NCBI GenBank assembly: GCA_009379955.1
Contig: WHST01000027.1
Span: 1-58,451 of the forward strand
Direction: 5' to 3'
Source of the DNA: Streptosporangiales bacterium
GTDB lineage: Bacteria > Actinomycetota > Actinomycetes > Streptosporangiales > WHST01
Length of the DNA: 58,451 bases
Shown in pieces: positions 50,000 to 58,103 of this stretch; position 1 is the first letter of the stretch; each line of letters opens with the position of its first letter. The position numbers and the translations under genes were made by a program. Below the pieces are notes generated by a model, which saw only the letters and a program-made list of their open reading frames with translations, searched no databases and was not told the origin of the DNA.

Positions 50000-51344
50000 G
50001 ACAACGCAGGCAGACGCGACGACGGTGGCGCCGGTGGTCGCCGTGGTCGGGCGACCCAACGTCGGCAAGTCGACGCTCGTGAACCGCATCCTCGGCCGTC
50101 GCGAGGCGGTCGTCGAGGACGTGCCCGGCGTCACCCGCGACCGCGTCGCGTACGACGCCGATTGGCGCGGACGCCGGTTCGTCCTGCTCGACACCGGCGG
50201 CTGGCAGGTCGACGGCCGCGGCCTCGCGGCGCAGATCACCGACCAGGCGAAGCTCGCCGTCGACATGGCAGACCTCGTGCTGTTCGTCGTCGACACCCTC
50301 GTCGGCATCACCGAGGAGGACGCCGCGGTCGGGCGCCTGCTGCAGCGCTCCGGCAAGCCGGTCGTGCTCGCGGCCAACAAGGTCGACGACCAGCGGGCCG
50401 AGGCCGACGCGACCTCGCTGTGGAGCCTCGGCCTCGGCGAGCCGGTGCCGGTGAGCGCGTTGCACGGCCGGGGGAGCGGCGACCTGCTCGACGTCGTGTT
50501 CGACCGGCTGCCGGAGCCGCCGCCCGACATGTCCGAGGAGGAGGGCGGCCCGCGGCGGGTCGCCATCGTGGGCAAGCCCAACGTCGGCAAGTCGAGCCTG
50601 CTCAACAAGCTGGCGGGCGCCGAGCGGGTGCTGGTCGACGCGGTCGCCGGCACGACCCGCGACCCGGTCGACGAGCTGATCGAGCTCGGCGGCCGCACCT
50701 GGCGGTTCGTCGACACGGCGGGCATCAGGCGGCGGGTCAGGGAGGCGTCGGGCAGCGAGTACTACTCGTACCTGCGCACCGAGCAGGCGCTGGAGTCCGC
50801 CGAGGTCGCCGTCGTGCTCGTCGACGCCAGCGAACCACTCGCCGAGCAGGATCTCCGGATCCTGTCGGCGGCCGGCGATGCCGGACGCGCCCTCGTCCTC
50901 GTCTTCAACAAGTGGGACCTGCTCGACGACGAGCGCAAGGAGCTCCTCGAGCGCGAGATCGACCGTCAGCTCGTCCGGGTCAGGTGGGCACCGCGGGTGA
51001 ACCTCTCGGCGGGCAGCGGCTGGCACGTCAACCGCCTCGTCACCGCGCTCGACACCGCGCTCGCGGGTTGGGAGACCCGCGTGACGACCGGGCGCCTCAA
51101 CGGGTGGCTGTCCGACGTCGTCGCGGCGACGCCGCCGCCGGTGCGCGGCGGCAAGCAGCCGAAGGTGCTGTTCGCGACCCAGGCCGGCATCGCGCCGCCG
51201 CACTTCGTCCTGTTCACCAGCGGCCCGCTCGAGGCCGGTTACCTGCGGTTCCTCGAGCGCCGGCTACGCGAGGAGTTCGGCTTCGAGGGCACCCCGGTGA
51301 AGCTGAGCCTGCGGGTCAGGGAGCGCCGCGGCCGGTCCCGCTGA
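49992..51344 (+). CDS. der: Ribosome biogenesis GTPase Der
   Basis: Tandem-G-domain GTPase needed for 50S subunit assembly. The 450-residue protein has two consecutive Ras-like domains. The first (from about 14) has GRPNVGKS, the switch Thr in GVTRD, DTGGW and NKVD. The second (from about 190) has [18 protein letters not shown] and NKWD. A C-terminal KH-like domain follows ([33 protein letters not shown]), with a basic end. GTG 49992 overlaps the upstream gene. It ends the string of seven coupled genes that starts at scpA. Confidence 0.97.
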
Positions 51345-51366
51345 CGCCCCCTGACCGGCGTCGTCG

Positions 51367-53319
51367 TCAGGGCGGCGACACGGCGCGCGGGTAGTAGGTC
51401 GTCGCGGGGTGGGAGCGGAGGAAACTGTAGGCGATCTCGCCCGGCGGCTTCGGTGGCCGGTTCTTCGACTGCCACGGCACCACCTTCCGGAACGCCTTCC
51501 ATGCCGCTGTCGGAGCGGTGCCGAACGACCGGTCCATGTTCAGCTTCTCGCCCTGGATCTCCCGGATGTTCAGCCAGTACGTGGCAGTCAACAGGCTCTG
51601 TGCCTGCAACCGTCCGAGGTCGGTGAGCATGGCCTTCAGGGCCGCAACCTTGAGCGAGGTCGAGGCCTGCAGATCCTCGACGTTCGCCACGATGGAGTTC
51701 CCCTCCACCGGTATCGGGTTCTGGTGTGTGTGCACCGACTGCAGCAGGTCAGCGAGGGCGTAGCTGTCCGCTCTCGGTGCCGCGCGGGTCTGCTGCTGTG
51801 CCGTCAGCCCGTACGAGGGCTCGATGACCGTGAAGAACGTGCTCTCGAACCGCAACGGCACCATCGCGTCGGTGACCGCGCAGTTCGCGAGCGCGTTGGT
51901 CAGCGCCTCGATCTCGTTGGCGACCGGGTAGGGATCCCAGTTCGCGTTGGAGAGTATGTAGCCGTGCCCGCATCCGGTGCCGCCGAGGCCCTTGCCCACA
52001 CAGCGCTCGGTGTTCGGGCCGCCCTTGACGTAGTACTGCTTGAGCCACGGTTCGTTGAGCTCGGGCGCCGAACTCGGCGACCAGCCCGGTGCCACGGACG
52101 GGTTGTGGTCGGAGGCGTTGATCTGGATCAGCAGGGCATCGCGCAGCTGTTTCCAGGCGGTCCACGCCGCGGCGTTGCGCTGGCTCATCGCACGCAGACT
52201 CTCCGGATCCTGGATGATCCGCTTCGGTACGCCGTCCTCGGACTCCTCGTCCCTGGCGAGGAGGTAACTGCCCTTGATCATGTCGAGCACGCGCGCGGCG
52301 GTCGCCTTCCATTGCGGGTCGGGGCGGATGGCGCGCACCGGCGCGGCGAGGGGGGTGATGCTGCTGTTCATCGCCTGGAGATCCATGGCGTAGAGCAGGT
52401 CCTGCCAGTTCAGTGCCTGTTGCGCGTCGTGGACGTGCAACGCGGCCTGTCCCATCGAGTACGCGTTGCTGCTGGTGAGGGCGGCTTCGTCAGCGGCGAA
52501 CGGCGCACCGGGCGCCAGTGGCTGTGCGGGCTGGTCCTGGAGCGGCTTCAGGCCCGCCTCGGCCAGGGCACGCTTCGCGGTCATCCGCTTGCCGTGGAAG
52601 TACGCGTACCCGACTCCCACCATCGTCGCCGCGACGTTGCCGAGCTGCGGCAGGTCACCTTCGCCCGGCGACCCCCGCGACTGGACGACCGGCGTGACGT
52701 CCTTGTTGAGCAGGTCGACCAGCATCTGCGTGAGTTGGGGGCTGGCCGCTTCGTAGCTCATCGTGTTGACGCGGAAGGCCATCATCGCCCGCACGACCTC
52801 GCGGCTGGCCTCGGGACCTGATCCTCCGGTCGCGCCGGACCTGAAGTTCCTCAGCTGGCTCTGGAGCAGATAGTCCCGGTTGGAACAACGCTGTCCGGTG
52901 GTCGGACAGGTCGGTGAATCCGAGGTGACCTTCGTCGACAGCGGGTCGCCAGAGAAGATCACTTCCTGCCGTCCCGAGCCGGCGGCCCGGTTGAACCAGT
53001 AGACGGGCACGCCCTCTCGTGCGCCCTGGAGAAGCAGGTAGTAGGCATTGAGCGAGCGTTGCCGAGCTCCCGAGGTGAGCCGGATCTTCGCGCCGTTCCT
53101 CGCGACGTCGACGATGTCGCCGATGGACATGCGCTTTCCGTCGGCCGTGACGGTGCCATCCGCGTTGACCGTCGTGTAGGCCGATGTTTCATACGCGGAA
53201 ACAGCTTGTGTCGATCCACGAACCTCTTGCGGATAGATGCTCGACGTCAAGGTGGCCATCAGTCCGATGGCGACCAGGACGACCAGAATGCGCCGTGTGC
53301 GCAGGAACCGTTGCCTCAT
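51367..53319 (-). CDS. Predicted exported HAL/PAL-fold ammonia-lyase homologue lacking the MIO motif
   Basis: A 650-residue protein with an N-terminal hydrophobic segment (ILVVLVAIGLMATLTSSIY) after a basic start, a likely signal peptide or anchor. The rest is recognisably the histidine/phenylalanine ammonia-lyase fold: VYWFNRAAGSG with Tyr107 (YGxNTGFG position), LLQSQLRNFRSG, INASDHNPSV, and VEGNSIVANVEDLQ. The segment that normally reads GSxGASGDLxPL, whose Ala-Ser-Gly cyclises to the MIO cofactor, is here GSPGEGDLPQLG (216-227), one residue shorter and without Ser. The usual QDPYSLRCxPQ is QDPESLRAMSQ (Glu373 for Tyr, Arg376 kept). Several Cys (for example CPTTGQRC) agree with an oxidising location. 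ATG 53319 has GGAGG upstream. Activity unknown; probably not a classic ammonia lyase. Confidence 0.82.
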   Translation of the reverse strand: MRQRFLRTRRILVVLVAIGLMATLTSSIYPQEVRGSTQAVSAYETSAYTTVNADGTVTADGKRMSIGDIVDVARNGAKIRLTSGARQRSLNAYYLLLQGAREGVPVYWFNRAAGSGRQEVIFSGDPLSTKVTSDSPTCPTTGQRCSNRDYLLQSQLRNFRSGATGGSGPEASREVVRAMMAFRVNTMSYEAASPQLTQMLVDLLNKDVTPVVQSRGSPGEGDLPQLGNVAATMVGVGYAYFHGKRMTAKRALAEAGLKPLQDQPAQPLAPGAPFAADEAALTSSNAYSMGQAALHVHDAQQALNWQDLLYAMDLQAMNSSITPLAAPVRAIRPDPQWKATAARVLDMIKGSYLLARDEESEDGVPKRIIQDPESLRAMSQRNAAAWTAWKQLRDALLIQINASDHNPSVAPGWSPSSAPELNEPWLKQYYVKGGPNTERCVGKGLGGTGCGHGYILSNANWDPYPVANEIEALTNALANCAVTDAMVPLRFESTFFTVIEPSYGLTAQQQTRAAPRADSYALADLLQSVHTHQNPIPVEGNSIVANVEDLQASTSLKVAALKAMLTDLGRLQAQSLLTATYWLNIREIQGEKLNMDRSFGTAPTAAWKAFRKVVPWQSKNRPPKPPGEIAYSFLRSHPATTYYPRAVSPP

Positions 53320-53619
53320 GGGATAAACCCTCCAGAGCGGGCGCCGCCGGTGAATCGACGAAGCGGCGACCTGCCGTCAGGTCCCAGGGTCCTGGCCAGG
53401 GTTTACCGGGATGAAATTTCGATTCACATTAGTGGATGGAGATGGCTGAGCGGAAGATGTGCGCTCGAAGTCAGCGGTCGGGTGCGACGAGCTGTAGCCA
53501 TCATCGGAGACGGGCTTCCACTGCAAGACGTCCTCGAAGCCGGCTGGGAGGATCCGGTGGCCTGATAGGTTCTGCGTGGTCACGGCTTGCTCCGGCGCGG
53601 GCTTGGTGGGATCAACACG
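53320..53619. other. Divergent intergenic region with crossed inverted repeats
   Basis: This 300-bp gap separates the lyase-fold gene (minus) from the GntR gene (plus). TAAACCCT (53324-53331) pairs with AGGGTTTA (53398-53405), and GTGAATCG (53350-53357) pairs with CGATTCAC (53420-53427). The two pairs interleave, so an RNA from the minus strand could form a pseudoknot-like fold, or the copies could be operator pairs. CCAGG/CCTGG (53384-53395) lies between them. A minus-strand promoter candidate is TTCCGC, 18 bp, TAATGT, with the -10 at plus-strand 53426-53431, touching the last repeat arm. The remainder up to 53619 shows no further gene that I can support. Confidence 0.5.
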
Positions 53620-54276
53620 TTGGACGTTTTCGGCACCATCACGAGGTCGCGGCTGCACGACGCCATCGTCGAGGAGATCGTCGGCGGCATCCGTGCCGGC
53701 CGGCTGGCCGCGGGCGACTCGCTGCCGGCGGAGCGGTTGCTCGCCGAGCAGTTCGGTGTCGGGCGCAGCTCGGTGCGCGAGGCACTGCGCATCCTGGAGC
53801 ACGCCGGCGTCCTCGAGGTGCGGGTCGGCAAGGGCACGTTCGTGACGGGCGAGGCCCGGTCCAGGGCCGCGGTCATGCGTGCGGAGGCCGCGATGGTCGG
53901 CGACCACAGCACGCTCGACGTATTCGTCGCCAGGATCGCGGTCGAGCCGTTCTGCGCCGAGGTCGCGGCGTCCGCGCGCACCACCTCGGACGAGCAGGCG
54001 CTGCGGCGGCTCCTCGACGAGCAGCGGGGGATCAGCTCGGGAGACGAACCTGCCGACCCGGACAGGCTCCACCGCGCGATCGCGGAGGCGACGCACAACT
54101 CGGTGCTCGTCGCCCTCGTCGGTCAGCTCGTCGCGATGACGCACCAGGTCACCTGTCACGAGCTGCGCGACCGAGCGCACGCGCAGATCGTCGCGTCCGT
54201 CCTCGCGGGCGACGGCACGAGAGCACGTGAGGCGATGACCGCGCACCTGCGCGCGATCGAAGAGGGGTGTGGATGA
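53620..54276 (+). CDS. GntR/FadR-subfamily transcriptional regulator
   Basis: A 218-residue regulator of the FadR subfamily. The winged helix (DAIVEEIVGGIRAGRLAAGD, PAERLLAEQFGVGRSSVREALRIL) is followed by an all-helical effector domain. The FCD-type metal-site residues are present in part: Asp in TLDVFVARIAVEPF, His in DRLHRAIAEATHN and His in MTAHLRAIEE. TTG 53620 is preferred, because GGTGGG lies nine bases before it and homologues begin at that point; TTG 53587 would add 11 residues. The next gene starts inside its stop (ATGA), so it heads the D-amino-acid operon and likely responds to that pathway's substrate. Confidence 0.9.
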   Translation: MDVFGTITRSRLHDAIVEEIVGGIRAGRLAAGDSLPAERLLAEQFGVGRSSVREALRILEHAGVLEVRVGKGTFVTGEARSRAAVMRAEAAMVGDHSTLDVFVARIAVEPFCAEVAASARTTSDEQALRRLLDEQRGISSGDEPADPDRLHRAIAEATHNSVLVALVGQLVAMTHQVTCHELRDRAHAQIVASVLAGDGTRAREAMTAHLRAIEEGCG

Positions 54277-55573
54277 ACGCGAGCATCGACCGGGCGAGGA
54301 TCGCCGCGCTGGCGGAGCAGCGGATCGGACCGCTGGTCAAGGGCATGCCGGTCGACGCCGGCGAGCTGACGTACGCCGAGCTCGCGGCGCAGCGGCGCGA
54401 CCTGCTCAGAGGCGGGTTCACCAGCCCGCTGCTGGCGCTGGACCGCACGGCGCTCGAGGCGAACGTCGCCGCCATGGCGCGCTGGTGCGCGGAGCAGGGC
54501 GTCTCGCTCGCGCCGCACGGCAAGACGACGATGGCGCCGGCGCTGTGGGCGCGCCAGCTCGACGCGGGGGCGTGGGCCATCACCGTCGCGAACATCGCAC
54601 AGGCGCGGGTCGCGCGGGCGTTCGGGGTGAGCACCGTCGTGATCGCCAACGAGATCGCCGGCGCCGCCGGCCTCGGCTGGCTCGCCGCCGAGATGGCGGC
54701 CGACCAGGACTGCAGGTTACTGTTCTGGGTCGACTCGGTCGCGGGCGTCCACGAGGCCGACGCCGGCCTGCGCGCGGGCGGCGCCGCGCGGCCCGTCGAC
54801 GTCCTCGTCGAGCTCGGCACCTCGCCGGGCCGTGGGGGCTGCCGCGACGCGGACACCGCGGAGGAGGTGGCGCGCGCCGTCGCCGGCTGTTCGGCGTTGC
54901 GGCTCGCAGGCGTGTCCGCGTTCGAGGGGGTCGTCAGGGCGAGACGGTGACCGGCGCCGTGGCGGGGGTCGACCGGATGCTCGACCGCATGCACGACGTG
55001 GTGCTGCGGCTCGCGAAGGCGGGCCTGTTCACCGGGCGCGACGAGGTCGTCGTCTCCGCCGGCGGCAGCGCCTACTTCGACCGGGTCGTCGAGGTGCTCG
55101 GTGACGTCGGCTCGCGGCTCGACGTCCCGGTGCGGGTGCTGCTGCGCAGCGGGTGCTACCTGACCCACGACGAGGGCATGTACTCCCGGCTCGCGCCGTG
55201 CGCTCGGGACGTGCCGGGCGCTCCGGACTTCACGCCGGCCCTTCGTGCCTGGGGGCAGGTGTGCTCGCGACCCGAGCCTGGCCTGGCGCTGTTGACGATG
55301 GGCCGCAGGGACGTGTCGTACGACGCGGGCCTGCCGAACCCGCGGCTGCGCAGCCGGCCGCGCGACGACGTCCCCACGCCATTGCGCGGCATGCGAGTGA
55401 CGGCGCTGAACGACCAGCATGCGTTCGTCGAGATACGCGAGGGAGCGGAGCTGGATGTCGGCGACTGGGTCGGCAGCGGCATCTCGCACCCGTGCACGTC
55501 CTTCGAGCGGTGGCAGGTGATCCCCGTCGTGGAGGGCACGACGGTCGTCGACTTCGTCCACACGTTCTTCTGA
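54273..55573 (+). pseudogene. PLP-dependent amino-acid deaminase (D-serine/D-threonine dehydratase-like), frameshifted
   Basis: Two overlapping frames together make one protein of about 430 residues with an alanine-racemase-type PLP barrel. The N-terminal frame (ATG 54273 to TGA near 54950) has LLALDRTALEANVAAMARWC and the PLP Lys84 in LAPHGKTTMAP. The second frame, to the stop at 55573, carries VVVSAGGSAYFDRVVEVL, VLLRSGCYLTHDEGMY, MGRRDVSYDAGLP and the zinc-type LNDQHAFVEI and SHPCTSFERW. This is the amino acid deaminase/D-serine dehydratase branch. The junction near 54935-54950 (GAGGGGGTCGTCAGGGCGAG) needs one added base. It may be a recent mutation or sequencing error, as the rest of the operon looks intact. 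Confidence 0.87.
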
Positions 55574-55591
55574 GCCGGGAGGTGAGGCGTC

Positions 55592-56374
55592 GTGCGCTTC
55601 GACGGTCGGGTGGTCCTCGTCACCGGTGCGGTCGGTGGTATCGGCGCGGAGCTGTGCCGGCGGTTCGTCGCGGAGGGCGCGGTCGTCGTCGGCGCCGATC
55701 TCGACGACGAGGCGGTGCGCCGGCAGGCGGAGCGTGACGGCTGGGCGCGGGGCGTCCGCCTCGACGTCACCGACGGCCCGCGGGTCAGGGAGACGTTCGC
55801 GGCGCTGGCGGCCGGCGTGGGACCGGTCGACGTGCTCGTCAACAACGCCGCGGCGTGCGACGACGCGGACTTCGCCCACCTGACCGAGGAGCACTGGGAC
55901 CGCGAGGTGGCGGTCACGCTGAAGGGCACGTTCCTCTGCTCCCAGGCGGCGCTGCCGGCGATGATCGAGCGCGGCGGGGGAGCGATCCTCAACGTGGCGT
56001 CGGTCAACGCCGTGACGTACGCGGGCAACGAGGCGTACAGCGCGGCGAAGGCGGGCATGCTGAGCCTCACCCGCAGCATCGCGGTGCGCTACGGCGGCCG
56101 CGGGGTGCGGTGCAACGCAGTGCTGCCCGGCACGATCCACACGCCGGTCTGGGACACCCGCCTCGCGGTCGATCCCACGGTGCTCGACCGGGTGACGAAG
56201 TGGTACCCGCTCGGCCGGGTGGGGGCGCCGGCCGACGTCGCCGAGGCGATCCTCTTCCTGTGCTCGGCGCAGGCCGCCTGGATCACCGGCGCCGCGCTTC
56301 CGGTCGACGGCGGGCTGCTGGCGGGCAACGTCGCGCTGACCGACGACATCGTCATCGCCGGAGGTGACGGGTGA
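55592..56374 (+). CDS. Short-chain dehydrogenase/reductase of D-amino-acid operon
   Basis: A 260-residue classical SDR: cofactor motif TGAVGGIG, an acidic residue at the end of strand two (GADLDDEA) that favours NAD, NNAAACDD, ASVNAV with the catalytic Ser, and YSAAKAG with Tyr149 and Lys153. The C-terminal ITGAALPVDGGLLAGN is typical. GTG 55592 follows GGGAGGTGAG. It sits between the deaminase and the D-aminoacylase and overlaps the latter by four bases. A 3-hydroxy or keto-acid dehydrogenase acting on the deaminated carbon skeleton is a reasonable idea but cannot be shown from sequence. Confidence 0.9.
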   Translation: MRFDGRVVLVTGAVGGIGAELCRRFVAEGAVVVGADLDDEAVRRQAERDGWARGVRLDVTDGPRVRETFAALAAGVGPVDVLVNNAAACDDADFAHLTEEHWDREVAVTLKGTFLCSQAALPAMIERGGGAILNVASVNAVTYAGNEAYSAAKAGMLSLTRSIAVRYGGRGVRCNAVLPGTIHTPVWDTRLAVDPTVLDRVTKWYPLGRVGAPADVAEAILFLCSAQAAWITGAALPVDGGLLAGNVALTDDIVIAGGDG

Positions 56375-57951
56375 CCGGGCTGCCCGCGGTCGTGCTGCGC
56401 GGCGGCCGGGTCGTCGACGGGCGCGGCGGCGAACCGACCCGCGCGGACGTGCTGGTGGTGGGGAACCGGATCGCCGGCGTCGGCACGGGTCTCGCCGGCA
56501 TCGCCGATGCCGATGTCGTCGACTGCGCGGACCGGTACGTCCTGCCGGGTCTCGTCGACGTGCACTCCCATGCGGACGCCACCGTCTTCGAGTCCGAGGT
56601 GCAGCGTGCGCTGCTCCGGCAGGGCGTCACGAGCGTCGTCGCCGGGCAGGACGGCGTCTCGTACGCGCCGGGCGACGGTTCGTACGCCACGACGTACTTC
56701 GGTGCCCTGCTCGGTCCGCACCCGGCGTACGGCTGTGGCGGTGTCGCGTCGCTGCTCGCGGCGTACGACGGTGCAGTGCCGGTCAACGTCGCCTACCTGG
56801 TGCCACATGGCACGGTGCGCCACGAGGTGCTCGGCGACGACGACCGTGCGCCGACGGATGACGAGCTCGTCGCGATGGAGGCGCTGGTGCGTCGCGGTCT
56901 CGCCGAGGGTGCCGTCGGGCTCTCGACCGGCCTCGACTACGTCCCCGGCCTGTTCGCCGACGCCGCCGAGATCGCCCGCCTCTGCGTCCCGGTCGCGGAG
57001 GCCAGCGGCACCTACGTCACCCACATGCGCGGCGGCTACGAGCACGCGGCAGCGGGCGGGGTGACGGAGGTGGTCGAGATCTGCCGCGCGAGCGGCGTCC
57101 GCGGGCATCTCTCGCACTACCACGGTCCCGGTGACACGCTCGTCGCGCTGCTCGACGAGGCGGCCGTGGACGGCGTCGCGCTGACGTACGACGCGTACCC
57201 GTACCGCGCGGGCTGCACGCTGCTGTCGATGCCGGTGCTCCCACCGGACCTGTTGAGGGAGCCCGTCAACGTGGCCGTGGCCCGGCTGCGCGACCCGGCC
57301 TACCGGGCCTGGCTGCTCAGGGAATGGATGCCGTCCGTCGCGTCGGTGCCGGCCACGGGTCCCGGCTGGGAGGGGCGGCTCCGGCTGGCCTTCGTCGCCG
57401 CGGAGCGCCACGCCTGGGCCGCCGGCCTGACCCCCGTGGACGCCGCCGCCCGGGTGGACGCCGACGTGCACACGTTCCTGCTCGACCTGCTCGCGGATTC
57501 GGACCTGGCGGTCACCGCGGTGATGCCCGTACCCGACCCGCGTCCGGTCGACGACCTCGCGGTGCTCGTCCGCGACAGCAGGCACATGGGAGGCAGCGAC
57601 GGCATCTACCTCGGCACGCACCCGCACCCGCGCGGCTGGGGCAGCTTCGCCCGATTGCTCGGCCGGCACACCCGCGAGCGCGCGGACCTCACCTGGGGCG
57701 AGGCCGCCGCCCACTTGTCCGCCCACCCCGTCTCGCGGCTGGGCCTGGGGACCCGAGGCCGCGTGGAGCCGGGCGCCGTCGCCGACCTGATCGTCGTCGA
57801 CCCGTCGACCGTGACCGACCAGGCGACCTATGCCGACCCCCGACACCCCGCGGTCGGCATCGACGACGTCCTCGTCGCCGGCGTCCCGGTGCTCCACGAC
57901 GGCGCCCTCACGGGCGCCACCCCAGGCACCGGCATCCGCCGTTCCCCGTGA
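56371..57951 (+). CDS. Amidohydrolase, N-acyl-D-amino-acid deacylase type
   Basis: A 526-residue metal-dependent hydrolase of the D-aminoacylase group, which releases D-amino acids from N-acyl derivatives. The metal-binding HSHAD (His65, His67), THMRGG (His218), GHLSHYHG (His249) and catalytic Asp410 in GGSDGIYLG are present, as is the typical end RGRVEPGAVADLIVVDPSTV. The position of the bridging Cys (GNCG in known D-aminoacylases) reads GQDG, with Asp94. This suggests a changed metal centre and perhaps a different acyl substrate. GTG 56371 overlaps the SDR stop. Together with the GntR, deaminase and SDR genes it suggests use of N-acyl-D-amino acids. Confidence 0.9.
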   Translation: MTGLPAVVLRGGRVVDGRGGEPTRADVLVVGNRIAGVGTGLAGIADADVVDCADRYVLPGLVDVHSHADATVFESEVQRALLRQGVTSVVAGQDGVSYAPGDGSYATTYFGALLGPHPAYGCGGVASLLAAYDGAVPVNVAYLVPHGTVRHEVLGDDDRAPTDDELVAMEALVRRGLAEGAVGLSTGLDYVPGLFADAAEIARLCVPVAEASGTYVTHMRGGYEHAAAGGVTEVVEICRASGVRGHLSHYHGPGDTLVALLDEAAVDGVALTYDAYPYRAGCTLLSMPVLPPDLLREPVNVAVARLRDPAYRAWLLREWMPSVASVPATGPGWEGRLRLAFVAAERHAWAAGLTPVDAAARVDADVHTFLLDLLADSDLAVTAVMPVPDPRPVDDLAVLVRDSRHMGGSDGIYLGTHPHPRGWGSFARLLGRHTRERADLTWGEAAAHLSAHPVSRLGLGTRGRVEPGAVADLIVVDPSTVTDQATYADPRHPAVGIDDVLVAGVPVLHDGALTGATPGTGIRRSP

Positions 57952-57974
57952 CAGAGCCGTCGACCGCGCGTCGA

Positions 57975-58042
57975 CCACGTCAACCTGGTGGACGTGGACT
58001 CCACCTCACGCAGGGACAACGCGAACCGGTTCGCGACGTGAG
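57975..58042 (+). terminator. Two strong hairpins after D-aminoacylase gene
   Basis: CCACGTC (57975-57981) pairs with GACGTGG (57991-57997). A second structure has CTCACG (58005-58010) pairing with CGTGAG (58037-58042), enclosing the 16-bp perfect palindrome CGCGAACCGGTTCGCG (58020-58035). They probably end the operon before the tRNA gene. Confidence 0.6.
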
Positions 58043-58087
58043 GCTGCGGACGCGACAACCGGGAAGCGGTCCGGCGCGGCGCTGCGA

Positions 58088-58093
58088 TAGGCT
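58088..58093 (+). promoter_or_regulatory. -10 box of tRNA-Pro gene
   Basis: TAGGCT lies 10 bases before the first base of the tRNA, a normal spacing for a stable-RNA promoter. I see no convincing -35. Confidence 0.5.
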
Positions 58094-58103
58094 TCGGGCG
58101 TTC

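Follow-up and report, generated by a model that had tools for sequence, protein, structure and literature searches.

The window analysed here, a 58,451-nucleotide stretch of DNA from a Streptosporangiales bacterium, contains at positions 51,367–53,319 of the minus strand a gene whose product (P0001) has the HAL/PAL fold, is predicted to be secreted, and lacks the residues from which the MIO cofactor is made. Which function can be ascribed to such a protein? A first-pass annotation of the sequence had considered a cofactor-free elimination, a binding function or a new substrate, and had drawn a connection to a neighbouring D-amino-acid operon.

Fold, export signal and active site of P0001

The open reading frame is intact: it specifies a protein of 650 residues and is free of internal stops. 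P0001 scores 259.6 bits against Pfam PF00221 (gathering cut-off 27.3) and thus belongs to this superfamily. In an AlphaFold model (pLDDT 84.5), about 480 residues align with HAL-fold structures, and the landmark motifs VYWFNRAAGSG, GSPGEGDLPQ (from residue 216), QDPESLR, INASDHNPSV and VEDLQ can all be found as first described. The N-terminus MRQRFLRTRRILVVLVAIGLMATLTSS resembles an export signal; this predicted element comprises residues 1 to about 41 (53,197–53,319, minus strand) and coincides with a low-confidence N-terminus in the model. As a simple hydrophobicity rule also assigns signal-peptide-like N-termini to 48 of 52 homologues, the sequences support the export that had been proposed. 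The "several" cysteines mentioned previously number five (138, 145, 440, 450 and 480), four of them within two insertions that are unique to P0001 and missing in 58/58 homologues. Cys138 and Cys145 (52,885–52,908, minus strand) are part of the first insertion, and Cys440 and Cys450 (51,970–52,002, minus strand) bracket the second one of 11 residues; each pair may form a disulfide.

In MIO-dependent HAL, PAL and TAL, MIO is formed from an Ala/Cys-Ser-Gly triad. The corresponding segment of P0001, residues 216–227 (GSPGEGDLPQLG; 52,639–52,674, minus strand), is one residue shorter than in HAL: GxxG-ASG-DL has become GSPG-EG-DL, such that Ala-Ser-Gly is replaced by Glu-Gly and Glu220 stands in place of the triad. 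An intact Ala-Ser-Gly elsewhere in the loop was sought by alignment with HALs and none was found; the loss of the triad, the central claim of the first-pass annotation, has therefore held. Tyr107 (52,999–53,001, minus strand) occupies the position of the general base Tyr53 of HAL and is a Tyr also in the aligned HALs and in ergothionase. Arg376 (52,192–52,194, minus strand) occupies that of Arg283, which binds the carboxylate. The Tyr280 equivalent of QDxYSxR is absent; alignment places Glu373 (52,201–52,203, minus strand) of QDPESLR at this position, as had been read from the sequence, and ergothionase has a Leu there. No His is found at the place of HAL His83, in which P0001 also differs from ergothionase. 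In summary, P0001 has in common with MIO-dependent HAL, PAL and TAL the fold, the PF00221 match and the equivalents of Tyr53, Arg283 and Glu414, but differs in the missing Ala-Ser-Gly, the Glu for Tyr280 and the predicted export. Its scores are far under every NCBIfam ammonia-lyase cut-off; for example, it misses the equivalog cut-offs of hutH TIGR01225 (127 vs 539 bits) and TIGR01226 (52 vs 519 bits).

The same genome codes for a second HAL-like protein without Ala-Ser-Gly (L002, G000:C9:43398-44711), which contains the loop YGALGTGDLSPL and the motif RIQDPFALR.

A conserved family and its relation to ergothionase

A homologue scan with one genome per species yielded 63 related loci with 41–51% identity in their best-matching segment. 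Nearly all are from Proteobacteria, namely Mesorhizobium, Labrys, Sphingomonas, acetic acid bacteria and many soil and bog MAGs. In the family alignment of 59 sequences (P0001 and 58 homologues), Glu220, Asp222, Tyr107 and Arg376 are each invariant (59/59) at a sequence identity of 45–54%, and the HAL Glu414 equivalent is, like those of Tyr53 and Arg283, kept in essentially all sequences. Glu373 is found in 57/59, both exceptions being the Leu373 copies of L055 and L077; a member encoded on a Paracoccus aminophilus plasmid has an Ile at this position. The active site thus appears rebuilt around a Glu pair that the family conserves, in agreement with the earlier proposal. P0001 itself retains 127 of the 139 near-invariant family positions and equals the consensus at 38 of 38 selected active-site positions, and it is therefore a maintained protein rather than a relic. 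It also has the features of the secreted GEGD/QDPES family (A1), that is Glu220, Asp222, Arg117, NWDPYP, SDHNP and a predicted signal peptide, and scores 829.6 bits against the family profile. In a phylogenetic tree, the family members group in a single clade (support 100/100), distinct from both the HALs and another set of secreted-type MIO-less proteins. Annotations list the members as aromatic amino acid ammonia-lyases, yet none of them can form MIO.

This other set (L100, L102–L105; rhizobia, Burkholderiales and Paracoccus) shares with the family the signal-peptide-like N-termini and a shortened loop without Ala-Ser-Gly. Unlike the family, it has a GEAD, GQAD or GAAD loop, QDPLSFR and the NKD Lys, and it lies outside the clade. 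Where annotated, these proteins are listed as histidine or aromatic ammonia-lyases. One of them, a "histidine ammonia-lyase" of Sinorhizobium meliloti pSymA (L102, 7935–9575), bears a signal peptide, is MIO-less (GSVGQADM, QDPLSFR) and adjoins a gene with the annotation dimethylsulfoniopropionate lyase, as well as an ABC transporter. Another, from a Paracoccus saliphilus plasmid (L100, 9968–11656; GSVGEADI), is likewise predicted to be secreted and directly follows hut genes.

Ergothionase is ergothioneine trimethylamine-lyase, which eliminates trimethylamine from ergothioneine to give thiourocanate. The 2019 paper on the structure of the Treponema denticola enzyme reportedly identified its essential catalytic residues. 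That this enzyme is devoid of MIO is stated, with reference to the 2019 structure, in a 2026 paper (PMC13405746). A MIO-less HAL-fold lyase with a GEGD loop was hence already known, a precedent missed in the first-pass annotation. The literature searched contained no report on a MIO-less family other than ergothionase, nor one on thiourocanate hydratase. When the family profile was compared with the PDB, T. denticola ergothionase (6s7j) ranked first with an E-value of 1.1e-64, followed by T. acidophilum HAL with 2.7e-39. Ergothionase was also the top hit of a single-sequence phmmer search with P0001 and the best match of the AlphaFold model in Foldseek. VIA-align superposed the model on ergothionase with a Z-score of 32.5 (484 residues, 3.2 Å), with HAL 7tqr tied at 32.2. 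In the tree, long branches prevent a reliable placement of ergothionase, also as sister to the family.

Both ergothionase (6s7j/6s7q) and P0001 combine a HAL fold without MIO with the GEGD loop and an identical one-residue deletion. They further share Tyr and Arg at the positions of HAL Tyr53 and Arg283, the motif QDPxSxR and an Asn-Ala motif in the region of HAL Asn195. In contrast to ergothionase, P0001 is predicted to be secreted and is longer (650 vs 497 residues), with about 22% identity over the fold. It contains Glu373 instead of a Leu (QDPLSFR), Arg117 instead of the WNKD Lys, NWDPYP instead of NFE, and SDHNP instead of TDDNP (DH instead of DD). Leu373 and the WNKD Lys were taken from 6s7j and may not be defining for ergothionase. 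Since these two residues and a thiourocanate hydratase partner were looked for and are absent, P0001 is not filed as an ergothionase. It nevertheless probably works like one. New is the conserved subfamily of predicted secreted proteins with Glu at the Tyr280 position, two members of which are linked to thiourocanate hydratase, as is the presence of the family in a single actinobacterial lineage.

Gene neighbourhoods and proposed function

Thiourocanate hydratase catalyzes the next step of ergothioneine breakdown. Its curated cut-off is 930 bits, and among the urocanases of 26 carrier genomes that were scored, two genes lie above it, both beside a family lyase; all others reach at most 708 bits. 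In L055, the hydratase (990 bits) opens a run of hydratase, MFS transporter, TonB-dependent receptor, lyase and second lyase, and an ammonium transporter follows. In L085, it (979 bits) is encoded 1.1 kb downstream of the lyase. The probability that two of two hydratases are found beside a family lyase by chance is of the order of 1e-5, which is a hand estimate made after the fact. The reading of the neighbourhoods was altogether post hoc. Thiourocanate hydratase is the most specific neighbourhood signal, and ergothioneine is the leading candidate substrate for some relatives.

In many relatives, a TonB-dependent receptor is located directly upstream of the lyase. A block that recurs in bog gammaproteobacteria comprises TonB receptor, TPR-sulfotransferase, lyase, PhnD-like protein, fatty-acid-desaturase-like protein and MFS transporter, and some family clusters contain a choline-sulfatase-like gene. 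Other members are found near DAO-GcvT dehydrogenases of the dimethylglycine/sarcosine type, FolD, PurU, sarcosine oxidase A and B, and MTTB trimethylamine methyltransferases; the FolD near L050 and L052 appears to be the sole copy in the genome. As the genomes of some carriers hold MTTB and DAO-GcvT genes in numbers of up to about ten each, such C1 and methyltransferase neighbours are partly to be expected and constitute weaker evidence. Most members have neither a thiourocanate hydratase nor demethylation genes adjacent.

The proteobacterial MAGs of L062, L066, L073 and L082, with 7–10 MTTB and 7–10 DAO-GcvT genes each, appear to be betaine specialists. Directly downstream of the first family member, L055 (9818–11617) and L077 (2223–4022) contain a divergent second one with the loop GGTGEADG. 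Further lyase copies also occur in L044, L061, L067, L086 and L088.

We consider it rather likely that P0001 is secreted and works without MIO as an ergothionase-type lyase, with amino-acid betaines as substrates. Among the options raised previously, a cofactor-free elimination is probably the chemistry, judging from ergothionase, which has the same GEGD loop without MIO, and from the invariant catalytic positions. The nitrogen of a quaternary ammonium group carries no free electron pair with which it could attack MIO, and the group departs readily by itself. It needs no activation by MIO, which would explain how the triad could be lost and would fit a betaine substrate. In the proposed mechanism, Arg376 and probably also Asn285 would hold the carboxylate of the substrate, and an aromatic and acidic pocket (Trp108, Trp461, Glu220 and Glu373) would hold the quaternary ammonium. 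The beta proton would be taken by Tyr107 or Glu373, and trimethylamine would leave to give an alpha,beta-unsaturated acid. In this way, the family would make extracytoplasmic betaines usable as a source of carbon and nitrogen. If this is true, soil and plant-associated bacteria split methylated amines off betaines extracellularly, and ergothioneine or similar compounds have a secreted degradation route, which would be missed by searches for ergothionase alone. It would also illustrate how the HAL fold can dispense with its cofactor once the leaving group comes activated.

With respect to the substrate, we tentatively propose that the family represents a new type of extracellular betaine lyase, which employs the pair Glu220 and Glu373, for a compound other than ergothioneine, e.g. 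hercynine, hypaphorine or an aromatic amino-acid betaine; the chances of this specific assignment are somewhat below even. It is also possible, though doubtful, that P0001 is a true secreted ergothionase that forms thiourocanate and trimethylamine from ergothioneine extracellularly. Both family members clustered with a hydratase above the cut-off and ergothionase as the closest solved relative would fit, and at the selected site positions P0001 differs from the L085 member solely in Asp549 (Glu in L085). However, the hydratase-adjacent L055 member has Leu373, as in ergothionase, whereas P0001 has Glu373; the hydratase is missing from most carriers; and the own genome of P0001 has a canonical urocanase alone (653.7 vs 930 bits). 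MTTB was not found in this genome either. Lacking both MTTB and thiourocanate hydratase, the genomic context gives no substrate reading for P0001.

That P0001 eliminates a different leaving group, be it a sulfonium, a sulfate or the ammonia of a special amino acid, and does not cleave betaines is unlikely. Its pocket differs from that of ergothionase, and the TPR-sulfotransferase, choline-sulfatase-like gene and PhnD-like protein of some clusters, as well as the ammonium transporter of L055, would suit such a reaction, but primary ammonia leaves poorly without MIO, and genes for N-demethylation and thiourocanate conversion recur near the family. A non-catalytic, secreted binding protein, as the first-pass annotation had envisaged, is most improbable. 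The lost cofactor, the predicted secretion and the TonB-dependent receptors that many relatives have immediately upstream would be in line with such a role; however, the catalytic positions are invariant, with the equivalents of Tyr53, Arg283 and Glu414 kept, and ergothionase shows that a MIO-less loop is compatible with catalysis. That the gene is decaying or misassembled is scarcely credible: despite its comparatively low GC content, its unique insertions and its single actinobacterial carrier, the frame is intact, Glu220 and Asp222 are conserved in the homologues, P0001 retains the conserved catalytic set, which rules against a pseudogene, and actinobacterial genes flank the lyase on one contig.

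Genomic setting and the neighbouring D-amino-acid operon

The lyase gene and the D-amino-acid operon are contained in a 6.8-kb insert (51,345–58,103) between der and tRNA-Pro(ggg), which was delimited by comparison with the related genomes G001–G003. In G001 and G003, der and tRNA-Pro(ggg) are separated by about 0.1 kb, and in G002 by 3 kb with unrelated genes. The GC content of the lyase gene is 66.4%, compared with about 70–76% for the surrounding genes examined. The source is the sole carrier of the lyase among 347 genomes of its order and 396 genomes drawn from its phylum. Even in a 398-genome sample of the proteobacterial phylum, only the centre genome and one other are carriers, and the distribution of the family is scattered. 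Given the single carrier in the order and the insert between der and tRNA-Pro, horizontal acquisition of the 6.8 kb is likely and the simplest reading.

The gap between the lyase gene and the divergent GntR gene (53,320–53,622; GC content 62.4%) is a possible regulatory region. The length of about 300 bp given earlier is accurate, as 268–303 bp were measured, depending on the choice of the GntR start. No sigma-70-like promoter or terminator was found in 51,300–53,700, and no regulatory RNA of an Rfam family in 51,000–54,300. The connection to the operon that had been suggested was not supported. Near the related lyase loci, no D-serine dehydratase or D-amidohydrolase gene was found, and plasmids of other actinobacteria carry related D-amino-acid operons at sites where no lyase is listed. 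The shared gap is therefore not evidence of a shared function, and a D-amino-acid function of P0001 deduced from its neighbours was rejected.

Within the operon, a D-serine dehydratase-like gene (54,267–55,573) is split by a frameshift near 54,938–54,950. Its N-terminal part matches PF01168 and its C-terminal part, in another frame, PF14031, which reflects either a sequencing error or a pseudogene.
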